From: Chloroflexota bacterium | GTDB lineage: Bacteria > Chloroflexota > Dehalococcoidia > JACPEP01 | DNA length: 36,858 nt | Assembly (NCBI GenBank): GCA_016183425.1 | Contig: JACPEP010000019.1 | Span: forward strand, 1-36,858 | Direction: 5' to 3' | Part shown: in pieces, positions 1 to 17,225 of the stretch | How the letters are laid out: each line of letters opens with the position of its first letter | How positions within the stretch are numbered: the stretch's first letter is position 1 | Notes under the pieces: generated by a model | Database searches by the model: none | What the model was told of the DNA's origin: nothing | What the model saw: the letters and a program-made list of their open reading frames with translations, nothing else | Position numbers and translations under genes: made by a program

Positions 1-52
1 ACCAGACGGTAGAAGCACTGTGGCAACCCCCCGAGTCCGTCAGTATCACCAA

Positions 53-136
53 CCGAAAGGAGGCGGCGACTCTCCTCCGGTAACATTTCTAAATGAGTGA
101 ACAACTCCCCTTCGGTAACATTCTTATGTGAGTTGA
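53..136. repeat. Direct repeat pair plus inverted repeat upstream of the yugP promoter
   Basis: Two imperfect copies of a ~26-bp sequence (76-101 and 111-136) sharing the core CGGTAACATT and a following TGAGT lie 35 bp apart just before the promoter at 145-173. A related CCGAAAGGAG at 53-62 faces CTCCTCCGG at 72-80 as an inverted repeat. Repeats at this place could be operator sites; no regulator is identified. Confidence 0.4.
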
Positions 137-144
137 CACGTAGC

Positions 145-173
145 TTGACAGTAATTTCAGACCCCCCTATAAT
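145..173 (+). promoter_or_regulatory. Sigma-70 type promoter for the yugP-like gene
   Basis: TTGACA at 145-150 and TATAAT at 168-173 are separated by 17 bp, a perfect match to the housekeeping consensus. A second TTGACA lies at 133-138 but has no correctly spaced -10 box. Transcription would start near 180, giving a short leader before the ATG at 208. Confidence 0.8.
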
Positions 174-207
174 ACCTATAAACAAAGGAGGTCGTTGAAG
201 AAGCGAT

Positions 208-903
208 ATGTTTTACCTTGACCCCCTGTATCTGGTCTTCGCCGCCCCGGCTCTATTGTTGATGCTTTACGCCCAGTTTCGGGTCAACTCAGCCTTTAAT
301 AAATACTCTGCCGTTGCCAACATGCAAGGCCTTACCGGCGCTCAAGTTGCCAAGCGTCTCCTGGGCATAAATGGCCTAGAACATGTGGGCATAGAAGGCA
401 CGGGGGGGAACCTTACCGACCACTACGACCCACGATCTAAGGTGCTCCGGCTGTCGCCAAACGTGTACAGAGCCCCCTCCGTAGCCGCCATGGGTATCGT
501 AGCCCACGAGGTGGGCCACGCCCTTCAGGATAGTGGTGGCTACTTTCCCATGAAAGTACGGGGGGCTCTGGTGCCCGCGGCCAGCGTTGGCTCCTGGATG
601 GGATATATATTCTTCCTGGCTGGGATATTCCTGCAAATTGCCAACCTGGTGTGGCTGGGGATCATCTTCTTCACCGGCGCCGTCGCCTTTGCCCTGGTGA
701 CCCTACCAGTGGAGTGGGATGCCAGCAACCGGGCCAAGTTGATGCTGCGCAACGCGGCCATGGTCTCCACCACGGAATATGACGCCGTAAACACCGTGCT
801 CTCGGCAGCCGCCCTCACCTACGTAGCGGCCCTTCTCCAAGCGGTAGCCAGCCTCCTTTATTACGTAACCGTAGCCCTGGGCATGGGTCGACGAGACGAC
901 TAG
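208..903 (+). CDS. YugP-like membrane zinc metallopeptidase
   Basis: A 231-residue membrane protein of the Zn-dependent protease family typified by Bacillus YugP (Pfam Zn_peptidase_2). The zinc motif HEVGH is at residues 100-104 within GIVAHEVGHALQ; the conserved E-W-D-A-S-N segment near residue 172 may supply the third ligand. A hydrophobic N-terminal segment (about 5-22), two closely spaced ones around 128-168 and another near 198-222 place it in the membrane. Length and architecture are normal for the family; the substrates are generally unknown. The Shine-Dalgarno AAAGGAGG (184-191) lies unusually far (16 nt) from the ATG, but a weaker GAAGAAG is closer and no better in-frame start exists. 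It is transcribed alone from the consensus promoter and is convergent with the next gene. Confidence 0.9.
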   Translation: MFYLDPLYLVFAAPALLLMLYAQFRVNSAFNKYSAVANMQGLTGAQVAKRLLGINGLEHVGIEGTGGNLTDHYDPRSKVLRLSPNVYRAPSVAAMGIVAHEVGHALQDSGGYFPMKVRGALVPAASVGSWMGYIFFLAGIFLQIANLVWLGIIFFTGAVAFALVTLPVEWDASNRAKLMLRNAAMVSTTEYDAVNTVLSAAALTYVAALLQAVASLLYYVTVALGMGRRDD

Positions 904-930
904 GCTTTTAATATCTCCCCCTTTGTTGTC

Positions 931-1812
931 TCAGGCCCAGCTTTTGCCCACAATGGGAGAATGACAGTGGGCGATGGGACAATCGTAGCAGTTGAAGGTG
1001 CGCACCTGGGGAAGAACCGCCCCCTTTGAAGCCTCAAAAAAGGTGATGGCGGGAGAAACCTGCTCCTCTCCACCGGTGAGAACGAGGGTGACAGCTCCCT
1101 CGGCACCACTCAACCCCCCAGCGGCAATGACGGTGGCCTTGGCCCCAGAGAGAATATCGAAGGCGGTTATCTCCGTGACCACCGCTCCTGCCACGGGCAT
1201 AAGGTTGCAGGCCATACCAGTACAGTAGTCCAGATTCCGCCGCTGGGCCTCCTTGGACGCCTCCCGAATGGGGTGGGGCACCAGCTTTTCCAGTCCCACG
1301 GGGAAAATAAGAGGGAATCCCTTGCGACGGGACGCTGCTACCACCCGGGCAATGGTTCCCCCCTCCACCGGGTTCCCGATGAGCACCCCCACCGTACCCT
1401 CCATATCCAGAGCATTGACGCCCTTGATGTACACGTCCTGGGGCCCCATCTCCCCAAGAAGGGTGCCCAGCTTGATACCGGTTCGTAGAGTACCGTCCTT
1501 TATCACCCACGTGAGGCGGAAGTCCTCTGGGCCACCCCTTCCTTTCTCATCGAAAACATCTCCGGCGTCTTTGCTAACGCGGCTTCCCATCTCGATACAG
1601 GTCGCTTTGGGAACCACGATACCACATGCCCAAGCGGTAGTATTGGCCCTTTCCCCCAGCAGCTCCTCCACAATAAAGTATGTGCTGGAGCTGGGGTGAA
1701 TAGCTATCACCCCTTCTTGGGCAGCCCTCTGTACCACTTCCATCTTGGCCACCGCTTTAGCAATAAGCTTCTTAGATTCGGTGGGGGTCAGAGTAATCTG
1801 AGCGCGCACCAT
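931..1812 (-). CDS. Conserved protein of unknown function with C-terminal Cys/His cluster
   Basis: A 293-residue soluble protein that I cannot assign to a named family. It has no signal peptide or membrane segment. The middle is rich in Gly/Val strands typical of an alpha/beta enzyme (for example GTVGVLIGNPVEGG and ATVIAAGGLSGAEGAV). The C terminus carries a compact cluster C275-x2-C278-x3-H282-C283-H284, which could bind a metal or an Fe-S centre. An AAGGAGG Shine-Dalgarno just upstream of the ATG at 1812 supports the start. It stands alone, convergent with the protease gene (27 bp between them) and divergent from the amino acid operon, so context gives no function. Codon use matches its neighbours, so it is very likely a real gene. 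Confidence 0.75.
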   Translation of the reverse strand: MVRAQITLTPTESKKLIAKAVAKMEVVQRAAQEGVIAIHPSSSTYFIVEELLGERANTTAWACGIVVPKATCIEMGSRVSKDAGDVFDEKGRGGPEDFRLTWVIKDGTLRTGIKLGTLLGEMGPQDVYIKGVNALDMEGTVGVLIGNPVEGGTIARVVAASRRKGFPLIFPVGLEKLVPHPIREASKEAQRRNLDYCTGMACNLMPVAGAVVTEITAFDILSGAKATVIAAGGLSGAEGAVTLVLTGGEEQVSPAITFFEASKGAVLPQVRTFNCYDCPIAHCHSPIVGKSWA

Positions 1813-1959
1813 AATCCTCCTTCCGACCTAGACTACGATAGCAATAGTATAGCAAATTACGAATTAAACCCGCCACCAAGACAATCTATATACTATTACG
1901 CCCTCTACAACAAGGTCAATGCTTAAGGCTCTTTTAGCCACATTGCCGCCAAACCCCTG

Positions 1960-2016
1960 AGGGGTGTCATTACCATAGAACTACCACACCCTACCACGAA
2001 AACCCTTGACACCCCT
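1960..2016. promoter_or_regulatory. Inverted repeat overlapping the ilv operon -35 box (candidate operator)
   Basis: AGGGGTGTCA at 1960-1969 is the exact reverse complement of TGACACCCCT at 2007-2016. The right half overlaps the -35 hexamer of the promoter at 2006-2034. Arm centres are 47 bp apart, which is 4-5 helical turns, compatible with a dimeric or looping repressor. The binding protein is unknown. Confidence 0.4.
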
Positions 2017-2034
2017 GGGGAGCTATGCTATATT
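2006..2034 (+). promoter_or_regulatory. Promoter of the branched-chain amino acid operon
   Basis: TTGACA at 2006-2011 and TATATT at 2029-2034 with a 17-bp spacer. It is the best promoter in the 406-bp region between the divergent gene starting at 1812 and ilvD. It would give a leader of about 180 nt that contains the attenuator described at 2128-2196. Confidence 0.7.
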
Positions 2035-2049
2035 TAGCGCCGATTCCAT

Positions 2050-2094
2050 ATGTCAACCATAGTCTCTTATCATAAGGAAGCTTACTTATGGTAG
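2050..2094 (+). CDS. Possible 14-residue leader peptide of the ilv operon
   Basis: A short ORF, ATG at 2050 to TAG at 2092-2094, encodes MSTIVSYHKEAYLW. It lies shortly after the predicted transcription start and before the terminator hairpin, as attenuator leader peptides do, and has one Ile (ATA), one Val (GTC) and one Leu (TTA) codon. There is no clear Shine-Dalgarno and the control codons are not in tandem, so this is a weak candidate. The same stretch can fold as CATAAG (2071-2076) with CTTATG, or as ACCATA with TATGGT, which are mutually exclusive. Confidence 0.2.
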   Translation: MSTIVSYHKEAYLW

Positions 2095-2127
2095 TGCGGA
2101 ATTCATTTTTTGAAGCCTAGCCCAAGT

Positions 2128-2179
2128 GGAGGCAAAGGGACATAAAACTTGAAGGTCGTAGTCGCTTCCGTCCGCCTCT
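2128..2179 (+). promoter_or_regulatory. Candidate antiterminator of the ilvD leader
   Basis: GGAGGC (2128-2133) and GGAC (2138-2141), separated by AAAG, can pair with GTCC (2170-2173) and GCCTCT (2174-2179). This uses the whole inner 5' arm of the terminator at 2167-2189, so the two folds exclude each other. This fits attenuation, but the pairing is only 10 bp with a bulge and was found by eye. Confidence 0.35.
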
Positions 2180-2196
2180 GGCGGACGGATTTTTTT
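2167..2196 (+). terminator. Intrinsic terminator in the ilvD leader (attenuator)
   Basis: TCCGTCCGCC (2167-2176) pairs perfectly with GGCGGACGGA (2180-2189) across a 3-nt loop and is followed by seven T residues (2190-2196). It ends 22 bp before the ilvD ATG and downstream of the operon promoter, so it must be conditional. It is too far (over 350 bp) and in the wrong orientation to serve the gene at 931-1812. Confidence 0.8.
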
Positions 2197-2218
2197 CTGG
2201 AATTGGAGTAGGATAACT

Positions 2219-3895
2219 ATGCGTAGCGACACCATCAAAAAAGGCGTAGAAAGGGCACCTCACCGGGCTTTACTCCGGGCCCTGGGATGCACGCCCGCTG
2301 AGATAGACCAGCCCTTCGTGGGCATCATAAATAGCTTCAGCGAGATCGTGCCTGGCCACAAACACCTGCAGAATGTAGCCCAGGCGGTCAAGGCCGGCGT
2401 CCTGCGGGCCGGCGGCACCCCCTTCGAAGTCAATACCATCGCCGTGTGCGATGGCCTGGCCATGAATCACCGCGGCATGGCCTACAGCCTGCCTAGCCGG
2501 GAGCTCATCGCCGACACCGTGGAAACCATCGTTGAGGCCCACGCCTTCGACGCCCTGGTTTTCATCCCCAACTGCGACAAGGTTATTCCCGGCATGCTTA
2601 TGGCCGCCGTGCGCCTCAACCTGCCCTCCATCTTCGTTAGCGGCGGGCCCATGCTGGCGGGAAACTGGCCCCCCGGCGAAGAACACGCCGTAGACTTAAG
2701 CAGTGTCTTCAACGCCGTCGGCCAGGCGGCCACGGGAGGCCTGAGCCTCCAAGAACTGGCCGACCTGGAGGCCGCCGCCTGCCCCGGCTGCGGCAGTTGC
2801 GCGGGCATGTTCACCGCCAACACCATGAACTGTCTCACCGAGGCCCTGGGCATGGCCCTCCCCGGCAACGGCACCATCCCCGCCGTGGACGCCCGGCGCA
2901 CCCAGTTGGCGAAAGAGACGGGGAGCCAGGTAATGCGTCTCCTAGCTCAGAATATCCGACCCCGGGATGTCATCACCTCCCACGCTATCGACAACGCTCT
3001 GGCGGTGGATATGGCGCTGGGAGGGAGCACCAACTCCGTCCTCCATCTCACCGCCCTGGCCCACGAAGCAGGACTCTCTTTCTCTTTAGCCGAGGTGAAC
3101 GTCATCAGCGAGAAGGTGCCCCACCTCTGCCGCTTGAGCCCCGCTGGCGAACACCACGTAGAGGATTTGGACCGGGCCGGGGGCATCTCGGGAGTCATGA
3201 AGGAGCTTCAAGGACTGCTTCACCTGGACGCCCAAACCGTCTCCGCCGCTCCATGGCGAGGAGTACTGCCCCTCGCCAAGGTAAGAAACCACCGGGTCAT
3301 TCGCCCCTTTTCGGAGCCTTACTCGCCAAAGGGCGGCATCGCCATTCTCTTCGGCAATCTGGCTCCCCAGGGAGCCATTGTAAAGCAAGGAGCGGTAGCG
3401 CCGGAAATGATGGTTCATCGAGGACCGGCGCGTATCTTCGAGTCCGAAGAGGCGGCCACCCAGGCCATCATGGCTCGCTCCATCCGGCCTGGGGACGTGG
3501 TAGTCATCCGCTACGAGGGGCCCCGAGGCGGGCCAGGGATGAGGGAGATGCTTACCCCTACCTCCCTCCTTACCGGCATGGCCCTGGATGGCCAGGTGGC
3601 TCTCATTACCGATGGCCGTTTCTCCGGGGCCACCCGCGGCGCCGCCATCGGCCATGTGTCTCCCGAGGCCGCTCGCCGCGGTCCCATCGCCGCCCTTCAC
3701 GAGAAAGATATAGTGGCTATCGACATACCTCACTACCAAGTAAACGTAGAGATGGATTCTCAGGAAATAGAACGGCGCTTGGCCCAACTGCTGCCTTTTG
3801 TACCCAGGGGAGAGTCGGGCTACCTGAGACGCTATGCTGAAACAGTAAGTTCCGCCAGCCAGGGTGCCGTGCTGGAAAGGGGAGGCAACTCATGA
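2219..3895 (+). CDS. ilvD: Dihydroxy-acid dehydratase
   Basis: A 558-residue enzyme that dehydrates 2,3-dihydroxy-isovalerate and 2,3-dihydroxy-3-methylvalerate to the 2-keto acids that precede valine and isoleucine. It contains the family motifs [11 protein letters not shown] (77-87), NCDKVIPGM (118-126, Cys119) and the Fe-S segment [18 protein letters not shown] (188-205), plus GRFSGATRG and GHVSPEA near the C terminus. The length is typical. It is the first gene of the operon, behind a conditional terminator. The ATG has a modest GGAG 10 nt upstream. Its stop codon overlaps the ilvB start (ATGA at 3892-3895), which suggests translational coupling. The enzyme is cytoplasmic and its cluster is oxygen-sensitive in many members. 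Confidence 0.97.
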
Positions 3896-5586
3896 AGAAA
3901 ATGAAAGGGGCTCAAATTCTGTGCAGTAGCCTCCTCAAAGAAAGGGTAAATGTGATGTTTGGTGTGCCGGGAGGTACCATTCTCCCCTTCTACGACTGTC
4001 TCATGGACTACCCCCAGCTTCGCCATATCCTGGTGCGCCACGAGCAGGGGGCAGCCCACGCCGCCGATGGCTACGCCCGGGCCACGGGCAAGGTGGGCGT
4101 CTGTGTCGCTACCTCTGGACCCGGCGCTACCAACCTGGTGACAGGCATCGCCAACGCCTATCTGGATTCCTCACCCGTGGTGGCCATCACCGGCCAGGTG
4201 CGCCGCTCCCTCATCGGGCGCGACGGCTTTCAGGAAGCGGACATCACTGGCATTACCCTCCCCATCACCAAACACAACTACCTGGTGCTTTCCGCCGCCG
4301 ACCTGGCCCGGGTGGTCAAGGAGGCCTTCTATATCGCCCGCACCGGCCGCCCCGGGCCGGTGCTTATAGACGTCCCCACGGACGTCCTCACCGAGGAAGC
4401 CACCTTTCAATACCCGGATCAGGTAGACCTTCTCAGCTATCGGCCCACCCTGTACGGCCACGCCGGCCAGGTGAAGAAGGCCAGCCACCTCATAGAGAAA
4501 GCCAAAAAACCCCTCCTCCTCGCCGGCAACGGCATCATCGTATCAGAAGCCTCCAGCGCCCTCAAAGAGCTGGCCGAAAAGGCCCAGATACCCGTCGTCA
4601 CCACCCTTCTGGGACTTGGGGCCTTCCCCGAGAGCCACGTGCTCAGCTATGGCATGGTAGGCATGCACGGCATGGCCTACGCCAACCTGGCGGTACAAAA
4701 TGCCGACCTCCTCATCGCGGTGGGCATGAGGTTCGACGACCGGGCCACCGGCCGCTTCAGCGACTTCGCCCCCCACGCCAAAATCATCCACATCGACGTG
4801 GACCCCGCCGAGATTGACAAGAACATCCACGCCGACATCCCCATCGTGGGCGATGTGAAGAACGTCCTGGAGGCCATAAACCAGAGAATAACCCCAGCCT
4901 TTCACGGGGAGTGGCTAACCCAGTTGGATGAGTGGCACCGGCAACACCCCCTCCCCTCCACCCAGCATCGCGATGGCCTCTTGCCCCAACTGGTGGTAGA
5001 AAAGATTTACCAGGTCACCGGCGGCGAGTCCATCATCGTCACCGGCGTGGGCCAGAACCAGATGTGGGCCGCCCAGTACTTCCGCTATGACAAACCCCGC
5101 TGCCTCATCTCCTCCGGCGGTCTAGGAACCATGGGCTTTGAGCTGCCCGCTGGCATGGGGGCTAAAGTAGGGCGGCCCCAGGACACCGTATGGGTGGTGG
5201 CTGGCGACGGCGGCTTCCAGATGACCATTCAGGAGTTGGCCACTATCGTACAGGAGAACATCGCCCTCAAGATAGCCATCATCAATAACGGTTATTTGGG
5301 CATGGTTCGCCAGTGGCAGCAGCTTTTCTATAAGCGTCGCTACATGGCCACGCCCATTACCGGCCCTGATTATGTCAAGCTAGCCGAGGCCTATGGACTC
5401 CTGGGCCTTCGCGTTACCGAGAGGTCCCAGATCCTTCCCACTTTAGAGCAAGCCATGGCCCACCCGGGGCCAGCGCTCATTGACTTCCAGGTCGAGCGGG
5501 AGGAAAATGTCTATCCCATGGTGGCCCCCGGCGCCTCCTTGGAAAAAATGATATTCATGAAAGAGGAAGAGAGACTACCCACATGA
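3892..5586 (+). CDS. ilvB: Acetolactate synthase, large (catalytic) subunit
   Basis: A 564-residue ThDP-dependent enzyme that condenses pyruvate with pyruvate or 2-ketobutyrate, the first common step of valine and isoleucine synthesis. The catalytic glutamate is E51 in [13 protein letters not shown]. The ThDP/Mg motif begins GDG at 438-440 and runs to [19 protein letters not shown] and the central FAD/PYR-linked regions are present. Length is normal. The gene overlaps ilvD upstream by 4 bp and ilvN downstream by 4 bp (ATGA at 5583-5586), the standard arrangement for the two subunits of this synthase. GC-rich codon use matches ilvD; for example 40 of 60 bases at 4741-4800 are G or C. Confidence 0.97.
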
Positions 5587-6467
5587 AAGATAGCAAACGC
5601 GTCCTGGTAGCACTGGTGGAGGACAAGTTCGGCGTCCTGAACCGGGTGGTCAGCCTCTTTAGGCGCCGCGGCATCAATATCGTGAGTAGTACTATAGGGC
5701 CTACTCACGAATACAACCGGTCCCGAATGGCTCTTGTTGTGGAAGCGGAGAACGTCGACGATATAGAGCAGGTCAGAAAGCAACTAGAGAAGCTAGTTTA
5801 TGTAATACGTGCTCAAGACATAACAGGTGACAACTACATAGCCAGAGAGCTAGCTCTCATTCACGTTTGGGCTACGCCTGAAAACAGAACCAAAATATTC
5901 CAAATTGCGGAAATATTCCGGGCTAACATCGTTGATGTAGCGCCAAACCAACTCATCATCGAAATCACCGGAGACGAAGATACAATCGATTCTTTCCAAG
6001 ACCTGATGAAGGACTTCCACATCATTGAGATGGCTCGGACGGGACGTGTTGTTTTAACCAGATGTAGAGATATGAGACCATTGATAGACAAAAGAGCGCT
6101 TATCGGCAGGGTTCGAATTGTCCTTGATGAATTTGTTTCCGAATATCACAGAATACAGGTAACGAAGCAAAAGACACACAATCAAGAGACACAATATGAT
6201 ACGTTTAGAAAGCGGCTTAAGAACATCTATGAGAGATTCGGCCTGATTAAGCAAGAATTCTCAATAGCTAGTAAGGAAATAGCACCCCACTTTCTCGCAT
6301 CTGTTAGTAGTATTAGTAAGACTTTTGAGGATCTGAACACTGTGCTTGATATTGATTTGGTAGCAGAAGCCGGCAAATCGAAATTTGACAAGACTGTAGC
6401 GAAAATCCATACGGATGTGCAGAACTATCTCCAACAAGAAATGTGGATTCACTATGCCGAATTATAG
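5583..6467 (+). CDS. ilvN: Acetolactate synthase regulatory subunit with unusual C-terminal extension
   Basis: Residues 1 to about 160 are a normal small subunit: an N-terminal ACT domain (VLVALVEDKFGVLNRVVSLF), then the IlvN C-terminal ACT-like domain ending in MARTGRVVLTR. This subunit binds valine and activates or feedback-inhibits IlvB. Small subunits usually end near 160-170 residues; here about 130 more follow, mostly predicted helix (KRLKNIYERFGLIKQEF, KTFEDLNTVLDIDLVAE), with no family I recognise. Base composition changes inside the gene: G+C is 33 of 60 at 5701-5760 but 23 of 60 at 5761-5820, and stays low to the end. The first ~60 codons therefore look native and the rest foreign, so the left edge of the insert probably lies here. 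The IlvN assignment is firm; the extension's role is unknown. Confidence 0.9.
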   Translation: MKDSKRVLVALVEDKFGVLNRVVSLFRRRGINIVSSTIGPTHEYNRSRMALVVEAENVDDIEQVRKQLEKLVYVIRAQDITGDNYIARELALIHVWATPENRTKIFQIAEIFRANIVDVAPNQLIIEITGDEDTIDSFQDLMKDFHIIEMARTGRVVLTRCRDMRPLIDKRALIGRVRIVLDEFVSEYHRIQVTKQKTHNQETQYDTFRKRLKNIYERFGLIKQEFSIASKEIAPHFLASVSSISKTFEDLNTVLDIDLVAEAGKSKFDKTVAKIHTDVQNYLQQEMWIHYAEL

Positions 6468-6475
6468 GATTTAGC

Positions 6476-6504
6476 TTGACAGGATTTTGCCCCACGACTA
6501 AACT
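6476..6504 (+). promoter_or_regulatory. Internal promoter of the ACT/AlbA_2 cassette
   Basis: TTGACA at 6476-6481, a 17-bp spacer and TAAACT at 6499-6504 lie in the 64-bp gap between the extended ilvN and the next gene. The -35 box is perfect and the -10 box matches 4 of 6. It would let the inserted genes be transcribed independently of the ilv promoter. Confidence 0.5.
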
Positions 6505-6531
6505 TTAGCCATCAATAAGAGGAGGATAGAT

Positions 6532-7536
6532 ATGCTTACTGAGATCATGTTGTACGTACCCAACAAAGCACGTGAGCTTAGCAAAGTTCTCGAAGCTTTA
6601 AAGGTGGTCAACATCCAAGCCTACAGCATCGAAGATGCTGGTAAACTTAATAGAGTCAGGTTGATAGTGAACGACTCAAAGGCCGCCTTGTATCAGCTAG
6701 ACCTAAATGGATACAATAAGGAATATAACAGTCTTGTGTCGTTACCAGTATTAGGAATTGAATTACCTCATAGAGCAGGTGAGTTGTCCAGAGTAGCACA
6801 ATTTCTGGGCGAGAACAATATAAACATAGAGCACAGCTTCCTAACGCTAGAGTTAGATAAAAAGAAAGCTATCGTGATAATAGATACAGACGACAACAGT
6901 AAGGCCGCCACAGTATTGAAAGACATCGACCTAAGAACATGTGATCACATTGAGGAACCATTAGAATCTTTAGCATCCCCACTACCTGACGGTCTGGATA
7001 TTTACGCTGGCTCAGATAATAAAAAATTGGAAAATATGATAAAACGTCTAGAAAATGACTTTGTTGAGTTTAAGTCCACTATGAGGTACGACCTAGACAC
7101 AAGTTCTGAGAATAAAGTAAACAAAGAACTGGGCAAAGCTATATGTAAAACGTTAGCTGCTTTTATGAATAGCAACGGAGGAACTTTACTAATAGGAGTG
7201 AATCCAGATAGTTCAATCAGAGGGCTAGAAGAAGATTTTAGCACCTTGGGCTCTCTAAAAAATGATGACGGTTTCTTACAAGTCTTTCGCAATATGATCG
7301 AAACCTGGGGTCTAATTGGCAACCTCCCCTTGATAACGCACCGATTCACAGACGTTGGTGAGAAAAGAATCTTCGTGGTTGAAGTTCGGAGAAATAGAGA
7401 AGAGCCTGTCTATTTAGGAAAAGACGAGGATTTCTACATAAGAGCTCTTTCTTCAAGCATAAAACTAAATACAAGAGACGCCTTGACATATATCAAACTC
7501 CACTGGCAATCAAGTAAGAAACGGTCTGTCAAATAG
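6532..7536 (+). CDS. Tandem-ACT / AlbA_2 fusion protein
   Basis: A 334-residue protein joining two ligand-binding ACT domains (about 1-67 and 72-135, the second containing GIELPHRAGELSRVAQFLGE) to an AlbA_2 domain (Schlafen AlbA_2, Pfam PF04326) from about 175. The AlbA_2 hallmarks are E179-F180-K181 and AFMNSNGGTLLIGV (210-223). ACT domains usually sense amino acids; AlbA_2 domains occur in nucleic-acid-linked regulators and defence proteins. Sensing of branched-chain amino acids is an inference from location. A strong GAGGAGG (6519-6525) sits 6 nt before the ATG. The gene is AT-rich (21 G+C of 60 at 7141-7200) unlike the flanking ilv genes, which indicates transfer. Its stop is followed in the same frame by a nuclease-like ORF. 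I know of no described ACT-AlbA_2 fusion, but could not search. Confidence 0.8.
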   Translation: MLTEIMLYVPNKARELSKVLEALKVVNIQAYSIEDAGKLNRVRLIVNDSKAALYQLDLNGYNKEYNSLVSLPVLGIELPHRAGELSRVAQFLGENNINIEHSFLTLELDKKKAIVIIDTDDNSKAATVLKDIDLRTCDHIEEPLESLASPLPDGLDIYAGSDNKKLENMIKRLENDFVEFKSTMRYDLDTSSENKVNKELGKAICKTLAAFMNSNGGTLLIGVNPDSSIRGLEEDFSTLGSLKNDDGFLQVFRNMIETWGLIGNLPLITHRFTDVGEKRIFVVEVRRNREEPVYLGKDEDFYIRALSSSIKLNTRDALTYIKLHWQSSKKRSVK

Positions 7537-7563
7537 GCTTTCCCCGGATCATTTTGTGAGTGT

Positions 7564-8043
7564 TTGAGGTCTACGTTGGCCGGAAAAACGGAACACGAAC
7601 ATATTAAACAAATAGTAGCTGATCGGCTAAGAGCCGTTGGTGGTTCTTCCATCGTAATAACAGAGGTCAATATTAGAGAGGGCGGGAAATGCATCGGCAG
7701 GCCAGACATTGTTATGGTTCGCCCCCCTAAAGTATTCATAGTCGAGATAAAGCTTGACCAGTGGCAGATCACCGATGAAGTTTTGGCGCAAATGAAAGTC
7801 TATGGTGCGTTTGCGTACCGAACATATCTCTGCCTACCTAAGAAGCGATGCTCTTCATCGCCTATCTCACTATGTCGGGACAGACACATAGGGTTAATTG
7901 CCGTCAATATCGACCCAGATGATGGACCCATAGGTTTGTTAACAACGAAAGTACAAGCCGTTTGGAACCCGAGCCCTAAGAAATGGACAGAGTTAAGCGA
8001 AAGGCTTGAAAAACTTGGCATGGAGTCGCTTTACTTTGGGTGA
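7564..8043 (+). CDS. PD-(D/E)xK nuclease-like protein, in frame with the upstream gene
   Basis: A 159-residue ORF with a restriction-endonuclease-like core: D48 in GRPDIVMV, then E61-x-K63 in VFIVEIK, followed by helices and strands (VYGAFAYRTYLCLP, IGLIAVNID) as in small predicted nucleases of this superfamily. The only usable start is TTG at 7564, with no convincing Shine-Dalgarno; the first in-frame ATG falls inside the nuclease motif. The ORF is in the same frame as the ACT/AlbA_2 gene, separated only by its TAG (7534-7536) and nine sense codons. It may therefore be a separate weakly started gene, a read-through domain, or the 3' half of a gene split by a nonsense mutation. Its composition is AT-rich like its partner. 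Fold assignment moderate, translation start uncertain. Confidence 0.65.
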   Translation: MRSTLAGKTEHEHIKQIVADRLRAVGGSSIVITEVNIREGGKCIGRPDIVMVRPPKVFIVEIKLDQWQITDEVLAQMKVYGAFAYRTYLCLPKKRCSSSPISLCRDRHIGLIAVNIDPDDGPIGLLTTKVQAVWNPSPKKWTELSERLEKLGMESLYFG

Positions 8044-8101
8044 TGCAGTCTCAAAAGCAGGTGATCTACTAACATCTTTTTAGTCCAGAAAGGATGGTAT
8101 C

Positions 8102-9103
8102 ATGACGAAGATGTACTACGACGCCGATGCCGACCTGGGCCTCATCAAGAATAAGACCATCGGTATCCTGGGCTACGGCAGCCAGGGCCATGCCCATGCC
8201 CTTAACCTCAAAGACAACGGCTGCAACGTCATGGTAGGCCTCTATCGGGGAAGCCCTAGCTGGGCACGCGCTGAAGAGGCGGGCCTCACCGTGGCCACCG
8301 CAGATGAGGTGGCTCGCCGCGCCGATATTATCGTTATGCTCCTCCCCGAGCATGTCCATTCCCCCGTCTATTCCCAGTCTGTGGAGCCGCATCTGTCCCC
8401 GGGCAAGACCCTGGTCTTCGCCCATGGCTTTAACATCCACTACAGCCAGATCGTGCCCCCCAAAGAGGTAGACGTCATTATGATCGCACCAAAGAGCCCA
8501 GGCCACATCATGCGCCGCCAGTTCACCCAGGGGGGCGGCGTGCCCGGACTCATCGCCATCTACCAGAACGTCTCGGGGCAGGCCAAAGAGGTGTCCCTGG
8601 CCTACGCCAAGGGCATAGGCTGCACCCGGGCCGGGGTCATTGAGACCACCTTCGCCGAGGAGACGGAGACCGACCTCTTCGGGGAGCAGACCGTCCTCTG
8701 CGGCGGCGTCACCGCCCTCATCAAGGCCGGCTTCGAAACATTGGTGGAAGCAGGCTACCAGCCAGAGATCGCCTACTTCGAGTGCCTCAACGAGCTGAAG
8801 CTCATCGTCGACCTCATCTATCAGGGTGGGCTGTCTTACATGCGATACTCCGTCTCCGACACCGCCGAATACGGCGACTACGTCTGCGGGCCTCGGGTCA
8901 TCGACGACCACGTGCGCCAGGAGATGAAGCGTATCCTCAAAGAGGTTCAGGACGGCACCTTCGCCCATCGATGGATACTGGAGAACCAGGCGGGTCGCCC
9001 CGCCTTCAACCTTATCAAGCGCAAGGAGCGGGAGGGGCAAATAGAGGTGGTGGGACGCCGATTGCGGGCCATGATGCCCTGGATGGACCCGAAAGAGGTA
9101 TAG
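8102..9103 (+). CDS. ilvC: Ketol-acid reductoisomerase
   Basis: A 333-residue class I enzyme that isomerises and reduces acetolactate or acetohydroxybutyrate using NAD(P)H and Mg2+. The Rossmann motif [13 protein letters not shown] starts at residue 24, and the cofactor loop [10 protein letters not shown] carries the Arg and Ser typical of NADPH users. The metal and substrate residues lie in the knotted C-terminal domain, with [10 protein letters not shown] and [13 protein letters not shown] visible. Length is standard. GC-rich composition resumes right at this gene, marking the right border of the AT-rich insert. A Shine-Dalgarno-like AGAAAGGA precedes the ATG. In an undisturbed operon it would follow ilvN directly. 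Confidence 0.97.
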
Positions 9104-9120
9104 AACTATTATGGAGCTTG

Positions 9121-9146
9121 ATACCCCAGGCTTAAGCCTGGGGTAT
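9121..9146. repeat. Palindrome copy 1 of the IS200-like element
   Basis: A perfect 26-bp palindrome starting ATACCCCAGGCTT, 17 bp after the ilvC stop. As RNA or single-stranded DNA it forms a hairpin of the kind recognised by IS200/IS605 transposases at their ends. It may also act as a transcription-pausing structure inside the operon. Confidence 0.8.
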
Positions 9147-9183
9147 AGAAATACTCAGCTTAAGTACAGGATATGAATAGAAA

Positions 9184-9291
9184 ATGCTTTACCACGTCTG
9201 GTTTGACACCAGAGGGAGAAAGTGGCTCCTAATAGGTGAAGTAGAGGAGCGGGTAAAGTCTCTGCTGTGGCAAATAGCAAAAGACAAATGA
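9184..9291 (+). pseudogene. Truncated IS200-like transposase remnant
   Basis: A 35-codon ORF starting MLYHVWFDTRGRKWLL is colinear with the first 35 residues of the intact transposase at 9353-9754, with four substitutions. Homology stops at AKDK, where a TGA follows. The catalytic HUH motif and tyrosine are absent, so the product cannot be an active transposase. Confidence 0.7.
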
Positions 9292-9316
9292 GTTGGCTGG
9301 GAAAGTGGCAGACTCT

Positions 9317-9342
9317 ATACCCCCGGCTTAAGCCTGGGGTAT
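9317..9342. repeat. Palindrome copy 2 of the IS200-like element
   Basis: Same 26-bp palindrome as at 9121-9146 with one base change (an extra C replacing A in the left arm). It separates the truncated and intact transposase copies. Confidence 0.75.
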
Positions 9343-9352
9343 AGGAAAAACT

Positions 9353-9754
9353 ATGCTTTATCACGTCTGGTTTGGAACCAAAGGGAGAAAGTGGCTCCTA
9401 ATAGGTGAAGTAGAGGAACGAGTAAAGTCTCTGTTGTGGCAAACAGCAAAAGACAAAGGCATAAACTTGCTGGAATGTGAGACGGCGGTGAACCACGTGC
9501 ACCTCTTGTTGCGAACTGAGGCGCACAACCTGCCTGCGGCGGTGCGGTTTCTCAAGGGCGTATCTGCCCGCAGGATATTCAAGGATTTTCCTGATCTCAA
9601 AGTGGACACCATGGCTAACAGTTTTTGGCAGGTGCGGTACGGAGCTAAGCCCATAGCCGAAGAGGCTAGAACAAGCGTCATCAGCTACATACGGAGTCAA
9701 AAGGAACGCCTGGAGAAGTTTGACCGGCCACGTAAACATATACCCCAGGCTTGA
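9353..9754 (+). CDS. tnpA: IS200/IS605-family TnpA transposase (Y1 HUH)
   Basis: A 133-residue Y1 transposase that would cut and join single-stranded DNA through a tyrosine. It has the HUH motif H48-V49-H50 in VNHVHLLL and the candidate catalytic tyrosine Y112 in SYIRSQKE. Length is near the usual 130-150 residues. The N terminus (YHVWFGTKGRKWLL) resembles the usual YHVVWTPKYRR opening. No obvious Shine-Dalgarno precedes the ATG; low expression is usual for this family. The coding frame is intact, so the element may still be active. No tnpB is present. Confidence 0.85.
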   Translation: MLYHVWFGTKGRKWLLIGEVEERVKSLLWQTAKDKGINLLECETAVNHVHLLLRTEAHNLPAAVRFLKGVSARRIFKDFPDLKVDTMANSFWQVRYGAKPIAEEARTSVISYIRSQKERLEKFDRPRKHIPQA

Positions 9755-9765
9755 GCCTGGGGTAT
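9740..9765. repeat. Palindrome copy 3 of the IS200-like element
   Basis: Third copy of the 26-bp palindrome, with one change at its centre (CTTGAG for CTTAAG). It contains the stop codon of the transposase and ends 23 bp before the leuA start. Confidence 0.75.
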
Positions 9766-9788
9766 CGTGAAAACATGGGAGAACAGTC

Positions 9789-11336
9789 ATGAATCGCGTC
9801 ACCATATTCGACACCACGCTACGGGACGGGGAGCAGTCCCCGGGGGTATCCCTCACCCAGGAGGAGAAGCTGGAGATCGCCCACCACCTGGAGCGCCTGG
9901 GGGTGGACGTCATCGAGGCGGGCTTCCCCATCACCTCGCCGGGGGACTTCGCCGCCGTGCGCCTCATCACCCGGGAGATAAAGGGAACTACTATTTGTGG
10001 CCTGGCCCACGCCAATCCAGAGGCCATCGATCGCGCCTGGGAGGCCCTTAGAGGTGCCCAGAGCCCACGCATCCATGTCTTCCTTTCCAGCTCCGACATC
10101 CACATGGTACACCAGCTCCGGAAGAGCCGGGAGGAGGTGCAGGAGCTGGCCGAGGCCATGGTGGCCCGGGCCCGGGGTTACACCTCTGACGTGGAGTTCT
10201 CCCCCATGGACGCCTCCCGCTCTGACCCCGCCTTCATCTACCAGGTCCTGGAGCGGGTCATCAGAGTGGGCGCCACCACCGTCAACATACCAGACACCGT
10301 GGGCTATGCCACCCCGGAGGAATTCGGCGCCCTTATCAAGGGCATCCGGGACAACGTGCCCGGAATTCAAGACGTGGTGATCAGTGTCCACTGCCACAAC
10401 GACCTGGGCCTGGCGGTGGCCAACACGTTGGCGGCCATCAGAAATGGCGCTCGCCAGGCAGAGTGCACCGTAAACGGCATCGGGGAGCGAGCGGGGAACG
10501 CCTCCCTGGAAGAGATAGTCATGGCCCTGAACACCCGCAAGGACTTCTTCGGCCTGACCACCAACGTGGATACCACCCAGATCTACCGCACCAGCCGACT
10601 GGTGAGCGACCTCACTGGCATGTCCATCCAGCCCAACAAGGCCATTGTGGGTGCCAACGCCTTCCGACATCAGTCCGGCATCCACCAGGATGGCATCCTC
10701 AAGGAAAGAACAACCTATGAGATCATAGACGCCCAAGCTATCGGCCTCTCCGGAAGCGACCTGGTGTTAGGGAAGCTCAGTGGCCGCCATGCCTTCAAAA
10801 AGCGCCTGGAAGAGATGGGGTACACCCTCAAAGACGATGAGCTCAATCGAGCCTTCGCTGCCTTCAAAGAGCTGGCGGACAAGAAGCACACGGTAACGGA
10901 ACGAGACCTGGAGTCCCTAGTCGCCGACGAGCTGCGCACCGTCCAAGAGACCTACCACCTGGACCACATCCAGGTCTCTTGCGGTGACCACAGCGTGCCC
11001 ACGGCTACCGTGCGCCTCATCGGCCCCAATAAAGAGATGCTAGCCGATGCCTCTCTGGGCAACGGCCCGGTGGATGCCGTGTTCAAAGCCATCAACCAGT
11101 TGGTGGGAGTTCCTTGCCAGCTTACCGAATTCAGCGTCAAATCCATCACCGAGAGCACCGAGGCCATGGGAGAGGTAACCATCCGCATCGAGGGTGAGGG
11201 ACGAATGTACACCGGCCGGGGGACCAGCACGGATATCATCGTCGCCAGTGCCAAGGCCTATCTTAACGCCATCAACCGTCTCCTTGAGGCCAGGAGGGAG
11301 GCGGGGGAGAACTCAATTGCCTACCCGCCATCTTGA
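9789..11336 (+). CDS. leuA: 2-isopropylmalate synthase
   Basis: A 515-residue enzyme that condenses acetyl-CoA with 2-ketoisovalerate, the committed step to leucine. The TIM-barrel catalytic domain starts with [13 protein letters not shown] and carries metal ligands H201 and H203 in [27 protein letters not shown] follows. The C-terminal third is the LeuA allosteric domain ([29 protein letters not shown]), which binds leucine for feedback inhibition. Full length for the type with regulatory domain. The ATG is preceded by GGGAG. Its last 20 bases overlap the likely start of the HEPN gene. It is separated from ilvC by the IS200-like elements. Confidence 0.96.
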
Positions 11337-11706
11337 CTGGCTACGCCAGGCTAAAAGAGACCTGGAACATGCTCAACGTTCCCTAGCCGCGGGGGATTAC
11401 GAGTGGGCCTGTTTTGCCGCCCACCAGGCGGCGGAGAAGGCGGTCAAGGGCCTCTTCCAGAAGCTGGGGGGGGAGGCATGGGGCCACTCGATAACCATGT
11501 TGCTGAGCCACTTGCCATCTGGGGTAGCGGCGGATAGCTCCCTGGTGGACAGGGCCAAGGAGCTGGACAAACACTATATTGCGCCTCGCTATCCCAATTT
11601 TCATCCCACGGGTGCCCCCCTTGATTTCTACACCCAGGGGGAGGCGGAAAGGGCCATTGACCATGCCCGAAACATCGTTGCCTTCTGTGAAGATAAGATA
11701 CTTTGA
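11317..11706 (+). CDS. HEPN-domain protein (toxin-type ribonuclease candidate)
   Basis: From the TTG at 11317 the product has 129 residues: a HEPN domain of the PF05168 type, starting [16 protein letters not shown], with helix [13 protein letters not shown] (34-46) and the R91-x4-H96 motif (RYPNFH), the pattern used by HEPN ribonucleases. It is paired with an MNT-type nucleotidyltransferase directly downstream, the standard HEPN/MNT toxin-antitoxin arrangement in which the MNT partner adenylylates and silences the HEPN toxin. The TTG has GGGGGAG just upstream and overlaps the leuA end; an upstream ATG at 11194 in this frame lies inside leuA and adds residues foreign to the family. Toxic activity is inferred from the family. 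Confidence 0.8.
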
Positions 11707-12028
11707 CTACCAGATGGTGTGGCACAGCCTTAGGCAATGGGCCTCAGAGGCGGCTCTCAGGCACCCTGAGGTAGAGAAGATTATTGCCTTCGGCTCTCTG
11801 GTGCGCAGAGAGGCTGTACCTGGCAGCGATGTGGACGTGATATTGATTGTGGAGGAATCGCCCCTTCCCTTCCGGGAGCGCATTCCCCACTACATGCCGG
11901 AGGCCTTCCCGGTGGGGATGGATGTCTTCCCTTATACCCGGGCCGAAGTAGAGAATATGATGAGGGAGGGGAACCTGGTCCTAAAGCGGGCTTTGGGGGA
12001 GGGGATAGTGATATTTGAAAGAGGCTGA
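11663..12028 (+). CDS. MNT-type nucleotidyltransferase (antitoxin of the HEPN gene)
   Basis: A small nucleotidyltransferase with the core G44-S45-LVRREAVPGS-D56-V-D58, i.e. the GS...DxD motif of the pol-beta superfamily, numbered from the ATG at 11663. Family members paired with HEPN proteins transfer AMP to the toxin. The start is uncertain: ATG 11663 has GGAAAGGG upstream, while GTG 11687 gives a 113-residue product and a 20-bp overlap with the HEPN gene, similar to the HEPN overlap with leuA. In either case the gene is translationally overlapped with its partner. The stop at 12026-12028 abuts a MITE-like repeat. Confidence 0.78.
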   Translation: MPETSLPSVKIRYFDYQMVWHSLRQWASEAALRHPEVEKIIAFGSLVRREAVPGSDVDVILIVEESPLPFRERIPHYMPEAFPVGMDVFPYTRAEVENMMREGNLVLKRALGEGIVIFERG

Positions 12029-12130
12029 GAGGCTGTGAAGCAATTGGTTTTGGGCACCTGTCCAAGGGGTCAGCTAGATACAAAATCAGGGTGTTCGAGG
12101 CGCTCACCCACGAAAAACTCCCAGGCTCTG
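12028..12130. repeat. MITE-like repeat, copy A
   Basis: A ~103-bp sequence that recurs at 12317-12418 as a direct repeat (shared core CACCTGTCCAAGGGGTCAGC, then TAGATACAAAATCA). The ends are short imperfect inverted repeats, AGAGGCTGTGA on the left and the complement of CAGAGCCTGGGAG on the right. No coding content is credible. It begins at the stop codon of the MNT gene. Confidence 0.65.
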
Positions 12131-12316
12131 TGGCTTGCGATGACCGTTTTGGCTGTCATTCCGAGGCCTCGACCCGCAAACACAGTGAAACGGAAGAGGC
12201 CGTGGGAATCCGTAACCCCTGGTGCGTTGTGACGGATTGCCACGCCCTTCTGCGGAAGGGCTCGCAATGACAGTATCGGTGGTGACGATCTGCCACGTCC
12301 CTACACTACACGCTGT
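12131..12316. repeat. Palindromic intergenic repeats between the two MITE-like copies
   Basis: This 186-bp stretch has no credible gene. It contains two foldback units: GGCCTC (12165-12170) with GAGGCC (12196-12201), extended by CATTCC with GGGAAT; and GCCCTTC (12244-12250) with GAAGGGC (12255-12261) across TGCG, extended by ATTGC with GCAAT. The second resembles dispersed intergenic repeats seen in many environmental genomes, but I cannot name the family. Confidence 0.5.
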
Positions 12317-12418
12317 GAGCCTGTGAAGAAATTGGTTTGGGGCACCTGTCCAAGGGGTCAGCTAGATACAAAATCATGGTGTTCGAGGCGCTCCCCCGCG
12401 AAAAACTCACAGCCTCTG
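12317..12418. repeat. MITE-like repeat, copy B
   Basis: Second copy of the repeat at 12028-12130, same orientation. Its termini are better preserved inverted repeats: GAGCCTGTGA on the left, and TCACAGCCTC on the right, whose complement is GAGGCTGTGA (9 of 10 matching). It ends 23 bp before the leuC start codon. Confidence 0.65.
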
Positions 12419-12440
12419 AACCTAAGGAAAGGAGAATAAC

Positions 12441-13697
12441 TTGACCCTGGCCGAGAAAATCCTTGCCGCTCACGCTGGAAAAGACAGAGTGGAGCCCGGC
12501 GAACTGATCAATGTCCGGGCAGATGTAGTCATGGGCAACGACATCACGGCTCCCATCGCCATCAACGAGTTCCGCAAGCTGGGTGTGTCCAAGGTATTTG
12601 ACCCTCAGCGAGTGGTGCTGGTGCCGGACCACTTTGTGCCCGCCAAGGACATCCTTTCCGCAGAGAACGCCAAGCTGCTCCGGGATTTCTCCCGGGAACA
12701 AGGCTCGGTCTTCTTTGAGGTGGGAAACATGGGCATCGAGCACGTCATCCTCCCCGAGTTGGGACTGGTTCTTCCCGGGGATGTGGTGGCGGGGGCCGAT
12801 TCTCACACCTGCACCTATGGCGCTCTAGGGGCCTTCGCCACCGGCATGGGCAGCACCGACATCGCTTGCGCCATGGCCACCGGAGAAGTTTGGATGAAGG
12901 TGCCTCCCACCATCAAGATCGTATATCACGGGCAGCTTCCCCCCTGGGTGGGGGGGAAAGACCTCATCCTCTTTACCATCGGCCAGATCGGGGTGGATGG
13001 AGCCATCTACTCGGCCATGGAGTTCAGCGGCCAGGCCATCGAAAGCCTTTCTATGGACAGCCGCTTCACCATGGCCAACATGGTCATCGAGGCCGGCGCC
13101 AAGGCGGGTCTCTTTTCCGTGGACGCCAAGACCCTGGAGTACGTTCGGGGGCGGGCCAAGCGTCCCTACACCGTTTACCAGCCCGACGGCGATGCCCGCT
13201 ACAGCCAGGTCCTGGAATACGACGTTTCCTCTCTGGAGCCGCAGGTGGCCCTCCCCCACTCCCCGGCCAACATCCGCCCCGTGAGCCAGGCAGGGGACAT
13301 AGCCATCGACCAAGCGGTTATCGGGAGCTGCACCAACGGCCGACTAGGAGACCTACGGATAGCTGCCCAGGTGTTACGAGGCAAGTCCGTCAATCCCAAC
13401 GTCCGCTGCATCATCATCCCCGGCTCTCAGGAGGTCTACCTCCAGGCCCTTCGGGAGGGGCTCATCGAGACCTTCCTCCGGGCCCGGGCGGCGGTGAGCA
13501 CCCCCACCTGCGGCCCCTGCCTGGGGGGGCACATGGGAATCCTGGCGGCGGGGGAGCGGTGCATCTCCACCACCAACCGGAACTTTGTGGGGCGCATGGG
13601 CAGCCCCCAGTCAGAGGTCTACCTGGCCGGCCCGGCGGTGGCCGCCGCTAGCGCCGTGGCCGGGCGCATCGTGGGGCCGGAGGAAGTGTTGAAGTAG
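12441..13697 (+). CDS. leuC: 3-isopropylmalate dehydratase, large subunit
   Basis: A 418-residue aconitase-family subunit that with LeuD isomerises 2-isopropylmalate to 3-isopropylmalate, and probably citramalate to 3-methylmalate. The [4Fe-4S] cysteines are C297 (IGSCTNGR), C357 and C360 ([10 protein letters not shown]). The substrate region [12 protein letters not shown] is present. At ~418 residues it belongs to the shorter LeuC/HacA-like type rather than the ~465-residue enterobacterial type. The start codon is TTG, supported by AAGGAAAGGAG 6 nt upstream. It is cut off from leuD by 3 kb of toxin-antitoxin genes, though the two subunits are normally adjacent. Confidence 0.96.
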
Positions 13698-13702
13698 GGA
13701 TA

Positions 13703-13740
13703 TTGCCATAGCCATAGGTGATGTATAATTAAGCTACATC
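13703..13740 (+). promoter_or_regulatory. Promoter and candidate operator of the vapBC pair
   Basis: TATAAT at 13724-13729 with TTGCCA at 13703-13708 (15-bp spacer) forms a plausible promoter. GATGTA (13720-13725) and TACATC (13735-13740) form a perfect inverted repeat around the -10 box, where a ribbon-helix-helix antitoxin could bind and autoregulate. AAGGAGG follows 8 nt before the ATG. Confidence 0.5.
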
Positions 13741-13757
13741 ATCAAGGAGGCGAGGGC

Positions 13758-14024
13758 ATGGGAACTTTGACCAAAAAGCCGATCCAGGTCTATTTGGAGT
13801 CGCGACAGGCGGAGACTTTGCGCTGGCTGGCCGATAAGAAGGGGGTCTCGGTAGCCGAGCTAGTCCGGCGCAGTGTGGACTGCTATCTGGCCCAGCTCCC
13901 GCCGGAAGAGGATCCGCTGTGGGGCATCATCGGGCTGGGAAAGAGTGGTTTGGGCGACCTAGCAGAACGGCACGACTATTACCTCTACGAAGAACCCTAT
14001 GAGAAATCGAGAGGGGAGGGATAA
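13758..14024 (+). CDS. vapB: VapB-like ribbon-helix-helix antitoxin
   Basis: An 88-residue protein with an N-terminal RHH/CopG-type DNA-binding domain (IQVYLESRQAETLRWLADKKGVSVAELVRRSVD shape: one strand, then two helices) and an acidic C-terminal tail suited to binding a toxin. The AAGGAGG at 13744-13750 supports the ATG. Its stop overlaps the start of the PIN toxin gene by one base, the usual vapBC layout. It should neutralise the toxin and repress the promoter at 13703-13740. It lies between leuC and leuD as a cargo gene. Confidence 0.8.
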   Translation: MGTLTKKPIQVYLESRQAETLRWLADKKGVSVAELVRRSVDCYLAQLPPEEDPLWGIIGLGKSGLGDLAERHDYYLYEEPYEKSRGEG

Positions 14025-14440
14025 TGCCCCCCTACCTCTTCGTGGATACGGCCGCTTGGCTGGCCTTGGCCGATGCTGATGACCGATTCCATCACGCAGC
14101 CACTCGGACCTTCTCTTCTGTCGCGGAGCGTCGTTGGAACCTGGTGACGACCAATTTAGTGGTGGCTGAGGCTTACGCCGGGATCCGGCGGCGACTGCAC
14201 CATCGAGCTGCGGTGTCCTTCTTAGACCGGCTGGCGCGCGCCAGTCGCCTGGAACGGGTGTTATCTACGAGAGAACTGGAGGAGACGGCCGAGGCCATCG
14301 TGCGTCAGTACGCTGACCAGGATTTCAGCTACGTTGACGCCGTGAGCTTCGCCGTCATGCGTCAGCGGGGCATCCAGGAGGCCTTTACCTTCGACCAGCA
14401 CTTCGAGGCCGCCGGGTTTGCCGTGGTGCCGGAGGCGTGA
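14024..14440 (+). CDS. vapC: VapC-like PIN-domain toxin
   Basis: A 138-residue PIN-domain ribonuclease candidate. The acidic metal-binding residues expected for the family are visible: D8 (YLFVDTAAW), E49 (VVAEAY), D105 (SYVDAVSFAVM) and D124 (FTFDQHF). The frame is intact and the length normal, so it is probably active. It is translated just after the RHH antitoxin (stop/start overlap at 14024). PIN toxins of this type cut tRNA or rRNA; the target here is unknown. Confidence 0.85.
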   Translation: MPPYLFVDTAAWLALADADDRFHHAATRTFSSVAERRWNLVTTNLVVAEAYAGIRRRLHHRAAVSFLDRLARASRLERVLSTRELEETAEAIVRQYADQDFSYVDAVSFAVMRQRGIQEAFTFDQHFEAAGFAVVPEA

Positions 14441-14497
14441 TCTGTGGCCGCCGCCAGAGCTACGGAGAGGCGGATATGGGACTGAGGCAGTAAAATA

Positions 14498-15073
14498 GTG
14501 CCGATAAGCGATTTTTTGCGGACGCATGTGTACGTTGACGGGAATAATTTTCTTCAAAGCGTGCAAAAGCAAGGGGGCCCCCGATTCATAGATTTTTACG
14601 TTCTAGCAAGGAGTGTGGCCCAACTCGAACCAAGTGTGCGGGAGTGGGTCCCAGGTACGGAATGCGCTGTAGCGCGATTATCCTACTATGATGCAGAGCC
14701 AGATGATACAGACCCTGAGAGGCAATAAAAACTACGGTACTTTAATGCTTTGGATAGATTGCCAGACTGCTGTGTTAGGCGCGGTTTTCTGCGGCGTGCA
14801 TCCCGCTCATCACGGCGCGCTCAAAAGGGAGTAGACGTGCTGTTGGCCGTAGATATGCTTGAAGATGCGCACAGGGGGATCATAGATGTCGCAATGCTGT
14901 TCAGTGGCGACGCCGATTTTGCGCCTTTACTCGAGGCTGTTCGACAGTACGGCCCCCGGGTGATCGTCGTTGCACACAGCGATAGCCTTGCTGACGATTT
15001 GCGCTTAGTTGCTGACGTGACGGTTGAGATTGATAGACAGCAACACCTCGTGATTCCAGAGCTTGCGCTGTAG
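14498..15073 (+). pseudogene. NYN-domain (LabA/DUF88-like) protein split by an in-frame stop
   Basis: The first part, from GTG 14498, has the NYN opening VYVDGNNF. The second part has KGVDVLLAVDML, then IDVAMLFSGDADFAPLLEAV and PRVIVVAHSDSLADDLRLVAD, the rest of a PIN-like NYN nuclease fold. Both parts are in the same frame and separated only by a TAA at 14726-14728; reading through gives ERQ-stop-KLRYFNALDRLP, which fits the family. A single C-to-T change (CAA to TAA) would explain it. Without read-through the acidic catalytic residues are divided between two products, so it is most likely inactive. It follows vapC in the same direction. Confidence 0.75.
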
Positions 15074-15090
15074 TAAGAACTTAACCAAGG

Positions 15091-15190
15091 GAGGCTTCAT
15101 TTGATTGTCCAGAGCACCGTCCGTAAATACGTCGCCAACGTGGATACCGACGGCCTGAACCGATGGGGGAGGATAGGCTCATGGCAATAA
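15091..15190 (+). pseudogene. leuD 5' stub 1 (oldest-looking copy)
   Basis: From TTG 15101 the reading STVRKYVANVDTD aligns codon for codon with [13 protein letters not shown] of the intact leuD at 16724, then skips seven residues (VIIPARY) and rejoins at LN. The Shine-Dalgarno region is also similar (GGGAGGCTT versus GGAGGCTTA). The frame runs on to a TAA at 15188-15190 and overlaps the start of the next antitoxin-like gene. It is the most diverged of the three stubs. Confidence 0.75.
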
Positions 15191-15369
15191 GCACCAGTAC
15201 TTTGAAACGCCTAGAGCTGCTGGAAAAAGAGATCGCGCAGCTTCGACGCCTGTCTCAAGGCGAGCGGCTCTACAAGTCCGTAGAACTCGACGGTGCCATC
15301 AAGGGTATCCGCTTCACTGAAGATGATATCGCGGAGGCCAAGCGCTCACTGTTTGGCGGTCAGGCGTAG
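15181..15369 (+). CDS. Orphan antitoxin-like small protein
   Basis: A 62-residue protein, MAISTSTLKRLELLEKEI onwards, with an N-terminal helix and a C-terminal tail (IKGIRFTEDDIAEAKRSLF) that looks like the toxin-binding part of a type II antitoxin. I cannot assign the family. ATG 15181 is chosen over ATG 15163 because GGGGGAGG lies 8 nt upstream. A GTG directly after its stop opens VAEVHALDSATP, which resembles the start of a PIN toxin but ends after 12 codons. The partner toxin thus appears lost, and stub 2 of leuD follows about 100 bp later. Confidence 0.55.
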   Translation: MAISTSTLKRLELLEKEIAQLRRLSQGERLYKSVELDGAIKGIRFTEDDIAEAKRSLFGGQA

Positions 15370-15471
15370 TGGCAGAAGTCCACGCGTTAGACTCGGCGAC
15401 GCCATGATACAGAGGTTAGGGCTGCTGGTCGAGACCATCTGGTAGCATGAGCAGTCCAACAAGGAGAAGAT

Positions 15472-17224: not shown

Positions 17225-17225
17225 C

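Follow-up and report, generated by a model that had tools for sequence, protein, structure and literature searches.

In a complete ilv-leu operon, a gene situated between ilvN and ilvC encodes a protein, P0001, in which a pair of ACT domains is joined to a C-terminal SLFN_AlbA_2 domain. The fusion is real and rare, and the reading we prefer, with a probability of a little under one half (about 0.45), is that P0001 is a one-component switch with the ACT pair as sensor and the Schlafen/AlbA_2 domain as output. The window analysed is a contig of 36,858 nucleotides from a Chloroflexota bacterium, and class and phylum below refer to those of this source (Dehalococcoidia and Chloroflexota). The operon runs ilvD, ilvB, ilvN, P0001, P0003, ilvC, leuA, leuC, leuD, leuB and citramalate synthase, with all of the enzymes recognised by NCBIfam profiles, which bears out the position inside an ilv operon given in the first-pass annotation. 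The features discussed are the following.

5583–6467, + strand: ilvN, acetolactate synthase small subunit (residues 1–161; PRK11895, E 7e-52, over residues 5–161) plus an extension
5690–8100, no strand: AT-rich tract, ~40–45% GC and GC3 ~40–50%, in an operon of ~60% GC
6476–6504, + strand: promoter-like TTGACA-17-TAAACT, a match to the consensus alone
6532–7536, + strand: P0001, ACT pair-AlbA_2 fusion protein of 334 aa (profiles, AlphaFold2 model, Foldseek)
6532–6747, + strand: ACT unit 1 of P0001 (ACT_8 profile; strands and helices of the model at 3–58)
6748–6936, + strand: ACT unit 2 of P0001, residues 73–135 (PF01842 over 73–131)
7051–7467, + strand: SLFN_AlbA_2 domain of P0001, residues 174–312 (PF04326, E 9e-17)
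7564–8043, + strand: P0003, small PD-(D/E)xK-like protein (Cas4 profiles E 1e-4, NERD E 0.02)

The start of P0001 is preceded by a strong Shine-Dalgarno sequence, AGGAGG. A promoter of its own had also been proposed. The TTGACA-17-TAAACT site is present and was the best of seven such sites, but shuffled sequences yield 5.4 +/- 2.0, and the match is not significant. The AlphaFold2 model of P0001, built from an alignment of ACT pairs from the class and AlbA_2 relatives, had a mean pLDDT of 80, with most of the AlbA_2 part above 90. In the model, two predicted ferredoxin-like ACT units are followed by a low-confidence linker (residues 135–159) and a confidently predicted AlbA_2 domain. The best Foldseek matches were the ACT pairs 9vp8 and 2f06 (TM 0.78 and 0.76, respectively, by target) and 3lmm (DIP2311), an AlbA_2 protein. 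Profile, alignment and predicted structure thus agree with the tandem ACT domains placed earlier at residues 1–135, and the AlbA_2 domain was likewise found as described, with EFK at 179–181 and the AFMNSNGGTLLIGV stretch ending at residue 223.

The N-terminal part belongs to the ACT_8 pair family PF19571, which it matches over residues 4–134 with 27.2 bits (curated cut-off 23.5) and whose two tandem ferredoxin-like units are those matched to 2f06 and 9vp8. The second unit also matches ACT, PF01842 (27.8 bits, cut-off 27, E 2e-6). ACT pair proteins of this kind include 2F06 and YdjB (9VP8), and standalone proteins of ~140 aa from the class are up to 35% identical to the P0001 part. A glycine in the ligand loop of both units, which is conserved in the relatives and lies outside the PF19571 profile definition, is present in P0001 only in unit 2. 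Unit 1 has Arg14 in its place (Gly in 24/24 standalone relatives), while unit 2 keeps Gly83 and Asn98 (Gly in 21/24, Asn in 24/24). The latter two positions correspond to Gly14 and Asn29 in the valine site of Escherichia coli IlvH. As the loop glycine is lost from unit 1 and both residues are kept in unit 2, the likeliest place for a predicted ligand site, if there is one, is unit 2.

The ACT pair would act as a sensor of some small molecule. An amino acid is the probable ligand, and a branched-chain amino acid is the best guess, with gene position in the operon as its sole basis. The scanned flanks of ten standalone ACT-pair loci were of the phenylacetate-CoA-ligase (PaaK) type in all but one, the exception having 2-oxoacid:ferredoxin oxidoreductase subunits as neighbours. 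The usual context of the family is, by these aryl-CoA ligase flanks, not ilv. A precedent for an ACT domain as the allosteric module of a non-metabolic output is provided by the ACT-GNAT acetyltransferases (AAPatA), which are described as amino-acid gated (PMC6434083); P0001 differs from them in both output domain and operon context.

The C-terminal domain is an SLFN_AlbA_2 domain by its profile score (62 bits, cut-off 25.3). It keeps the motif E-x4-E-x-K as E174, E179 and K181, and this motif is invariant, both across the alignment of 18 relatives and in all homologues where it could be read. A profile of the domain and its relatives matched solved Schlafen structures (SLFN11, E 4e-10) with the same residues aligned, and E174, E179 and K181 correspond to E209, E214 and K216 of SLFN11, each of which is essential to tRNA cleavage (PMC9482658). 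The third acid, in the GVxD motif, is Pro225 in P0001 and Asp in every other relative read. The position is that of D252 in SLFN11 and D248 in SLFN13. The D252A change does not abolish activity in SLFN11 (PMC9482658), and loss of the third carboxylate lowers activity in SLFN13 but not in SLFN11 (PMC9482658, PMC5862951). Each of the three acids contributes in SLFN13, with the two Glu residues having the largest effect (PMC5862951). The AlbA_2 fold and the E-x4-E-x-K site are common to P0001 and the Schlafens SLFN11, SLFN13 and SLFN14, whereas P0001 has one AlbA_2 unit rather than two lobes, lacks the helicase part, carries an ACT pair in front and has Pro for the third Asp.

With the three essential residues kept, RNase activity is plausible as a prediction, though Pro225 replaces the Asp. 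The AlbA_2 domain itself is the likely effector; the first-pass annotation had looked for the nuclease in the neighbouring gene and overlooked these Schlafen RNase residues. The output would most likely be a metal-dependent RNase with tRNA or another structured RNA as its substrate, or alternatively a nucleic-acid binder. We infer that a ligand, bound chiefly by ACT unit 2 with its intact Gly83/Asn98 loop, would change the geometry of the dimer and so gate the AlbA_2 site. Pro225 and the lost loop glycine of ACT unit 1 both count against a switch.

A binding-only AlbA_2 domain, which the replacement of the third acid by Pro225 could mean, would suit a different reading, in which P0001 exerts feedback control over the ilv-leu genes: its ACT pair reads the end product and its AlbA_2 domain binds nucleic acid uncut, for example the transcript or DNA of the operon. 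The position between ilvN and ilvC is consistent with this, and no Rfam leader (T-box or similar) that might already serve that role was found in positions 1–20000 of the window. The retention of the E/E/K catalytic residues argues against it, as do the ligase rather than ilv partners of the standalone ACT pairs and the absence of P0001 from the other genomes searched, including ilvN-bearing members of the class. We regard this reading as unlikely.

The closest relatives of the AlbA_2 domain place the switch in a broader setting. They are C-terminal modules in Bacteroidota, Desulfobacterota and the phylum of the source. When every frame of the loci fetched with homologues (numbered L002, L021 and so on) was scanned with profiles, more than 30 AlbA_2 homologues were found, nearly all of them C-terminal, and ACT and AlbA_2 occurred together in P0001 alone. 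The N-terminal partners were cNMP_binding (L022 and L025, and by reading also L024 and L026), Response_reg (L023), GmrSD_N (L028 and L031), an Eco57I methylase (L027), DUF2779 (L002) and MrcB_N with Sel1 (L033). In L021 the domain follows an N-terminal part with apparent transmembrane segments and no family assigned. The bacterial sensor-AlbA_2 proteins are built as P0001 is, with ~300–330 aa and a small sensor before a C-terminal AlbA_2 domain of the same subfamily, 30–35% identical to that of P0001; they differ in having a cyclic-nucleotide or receiver domain where P0001 has the ACT pair. Since AlbA_2 relatives are fused to such varied sensors or to restriction domains, P0001 is a new sensor on an already known modular architecture. 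It would add one more sensor to a modular set whose shared AlbA_2 domain is joined N-terminally to cyclic-nucleotide-binding, receiver or restriction domains.

The cNMP-binding and receiver fusions from Bacteroidota and Desulfobacterota (L022:7584–8489, L023:7500–8471, L025 and L026) have all of the catalytic residues and are candidates for signal-gated Schlafen-like proteins. The genes in L022, L023 and L026, the three loci whose neighbourhoods were read, sit amid ordinary chromosomal genes. In L002 (127–2139), the N-terminal part reads as RecB/Cas4-like and is followed by DUF2779 and then AlbA_2, which puts a nuclease-like part and AlbA_2 on one polypeptide.

These fusions show a single AlbA_2 subfamily serving interchangeably as the output of sensors (cyclic nucleotide, receiver, ACT) and of restriction domains. 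If that output is a Schlafen-type RNase, bacteria would possess Schlafens gated by a signal, and the sensor domain would reveal what triggers each of them, making trigger and target directly testable, and P0001 would link a Schlafen-type output to amino-acid supply.

The first-pass annotation had named absence of the fusion from all other genomes as a finding that would contradict its proposal. No second case was found in 393 genomes of the class or 350 of the phylum; phages, plasmids, viral contigs and genome contigs likewise yielded none, and a structure search of viral proteins with P0001 returned AlbA_2-like or ACT-like matches only, none with both. Sampling was deep only for the phylum of the source, and the assembly holding the fusion is a draft. 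Among the genomes searched the fusion is a singleton, which does not disprove a function but leaves nothing to compare from which selection on P0001 could be judged. It seems to be a rare, isolated member of a broader signal-sensing Schlafen-like set and not a proven new system.

P0003, the gene downstream, is separated from P0001 by 27–39 bases and the two are probably co-transcribed. Its residues D48, E61 and K63 (E61-x-K63), numbered from the TTG at 7564, are present as previously annotated; a better Shine-Dalgarno-like GAGG suggests that the start may instead be the TTG at 7576. The spacing of these residues and the Cas4 score, its best, recall the Cas4/RecB-like PD-(D/E)xK nucleases, but the score is far below the NCBIfam cas4 cut-off and the NERD match is also below cut-off. 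Structure prediction, which gave the ACT and AlbA_2 folds in P0001, did not confirm a nuclease fold here (pLDDT 44, no structural match), and the nuclease assignment is accordingly weak. Among ~600 genomes (197 relatives and 400 of the phylum), there was one clear homologue (L049, 39–40% identical), with two further matches only at E ~8e-4. In the L049 protein, His and Gln have replaced the catalytic D and E, and its gene lies near a serine recombinase. No ACT-AlbA_2 gene was found in the 325 bases upstream of it, where the contig begins, and no P0003 homologue in viral contigs, plasmids or phages.

The pair formed by the ACT-AlbA_2 gene and the nuclease gene did not recur in the genomes searched, the fusion being found nowhere else and L049 having no such gene in that upstream stretch. 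Nor was the nuclease a constant neighbour among the relatives: L022, L023 and L026 had no P0003-like nuclease in the neighbourhood of the sensor-AlbA_2 gene. What is well supported of the two-part system proposed in the first-pass annotation is the coupling of a sensor to a nucleic-acid output, both within one protein; the separate nuclease partner is not. A sensor-Schlafen switch is a better reading of the fusion than ACT plus a separate nuclease, and any role of P0003 would be an addition to it. That P0001 is an amino-acid-gated Schlafen-type RNase of the branched-chain operon, converting branched-chain amino acid level directly into the cleavage of tRNA or mRNA, perhaps with the help of a second nuclease, as a response to starvation or infection, we consider quite unlikely.

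Both genes lie in the AT-rich tract, which begins inside ilvN and ends at the start of ilvC. GC3 falls from 70–80% to ~40–50% past roughly codons 30–60 of ilvN and rises again at ilvC; within ilvN it is 70% for codons 1–40, 49% for codons 41–160 and 40% for the extension. No comparable drop over codons 41–160 was seen in the ilvN of 14 class relatives scored. The C-terminal extension of ilvN (~130 residues, ~163–294; 6060–6467, in frame) had no counterpart in the 147 other genomes of the class searched and no family by Pfam or NCBIfam profiles, and may represent a third gene of the tract, fused to ilvN. By composition alone, the simplest inference is that the tract is foreign DNA, apparently with one end inside ilvN. 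The cassette would then already have been beside ilvN in the donor, and an ilvN linkage that may predate transfer is a further point for the feedback regulator. The two halves of ilvN showed no clear difference in their nearest relatives, so it is composition that places the recombination point inside ilvN. An assembly chimera was considered unlikely, the ilvN frame and the identity to the same class relatives running across the change in composition.

The foreign composition also bears on whether P0001, P0003 and perhaps the extension of ilvN make up a mobile insert of the defence or toxin-antitoxin kind. Its link to amino acids would then be incidental, or a way to sense starvation brought on by infection. 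Genes resembling toxin-antitoxin systems accumulate in this ilv-leu operon. Between leuA and leuC, a HEPN gene precedes a nucleotidyltransferase gene (HEPN/MNT-like toxin-antitoxin pair, 11194–12028), and positions 13758–16669, between leuC and leuD, hold paired RHH and PIN genes, an NYN-domain gene interrupted by a stop, a RelBE-like pair assigned by reading only and another nucleotidyltransferase. An IS200-like Y1 transposase (9353–9754) follows ilvC. The serine recombinase near the sole clear P0003 homologue and the restriction domains on many AlbA_2 relatives point the same way, and Schlafen RNases have been reported as backup effectors alongside BREX, in a paper that also cites bacterial Schlafens as anti-phage (PMC12839542). 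Against such an insert, defence profiles gave nothing beyond noise for P0001, the fusion has no homologue in phages, plasmids or viral contigs, and a number of the remaining insert genes (HEPN, RHH, PIN) are close to the host in composition and thus do not form one island with the AT-rich tract. This reading is unlikely. Matches of P0001 to Csn2 and pAgo profiles (E 0.002–0.01) were judged to be echoes of its ACT and AlbA_2 parts.

A recent foreign insert with no selected function, now decaying, would account for a singleton of foreign composition with two conserved positions lost (the Gly in ACT unit 1 and the Asp in AlbA_2) and a degenerate nearest nuclease homologue. Three long frames in series, all intact, a strong Shine-Dalgarno sequence ahead of P0001, the intact E/E/K residues and a high-confidence AlbA_2 model make it very unlikely.

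A partial IS200-like copy of 105 nt, 92% identical, was found at 9184–9288, and three copies of a palindrome of the CCCCAGGCTTAAGCCTGGGG type, within 9120–9774, flank the transposase and the partial copy.
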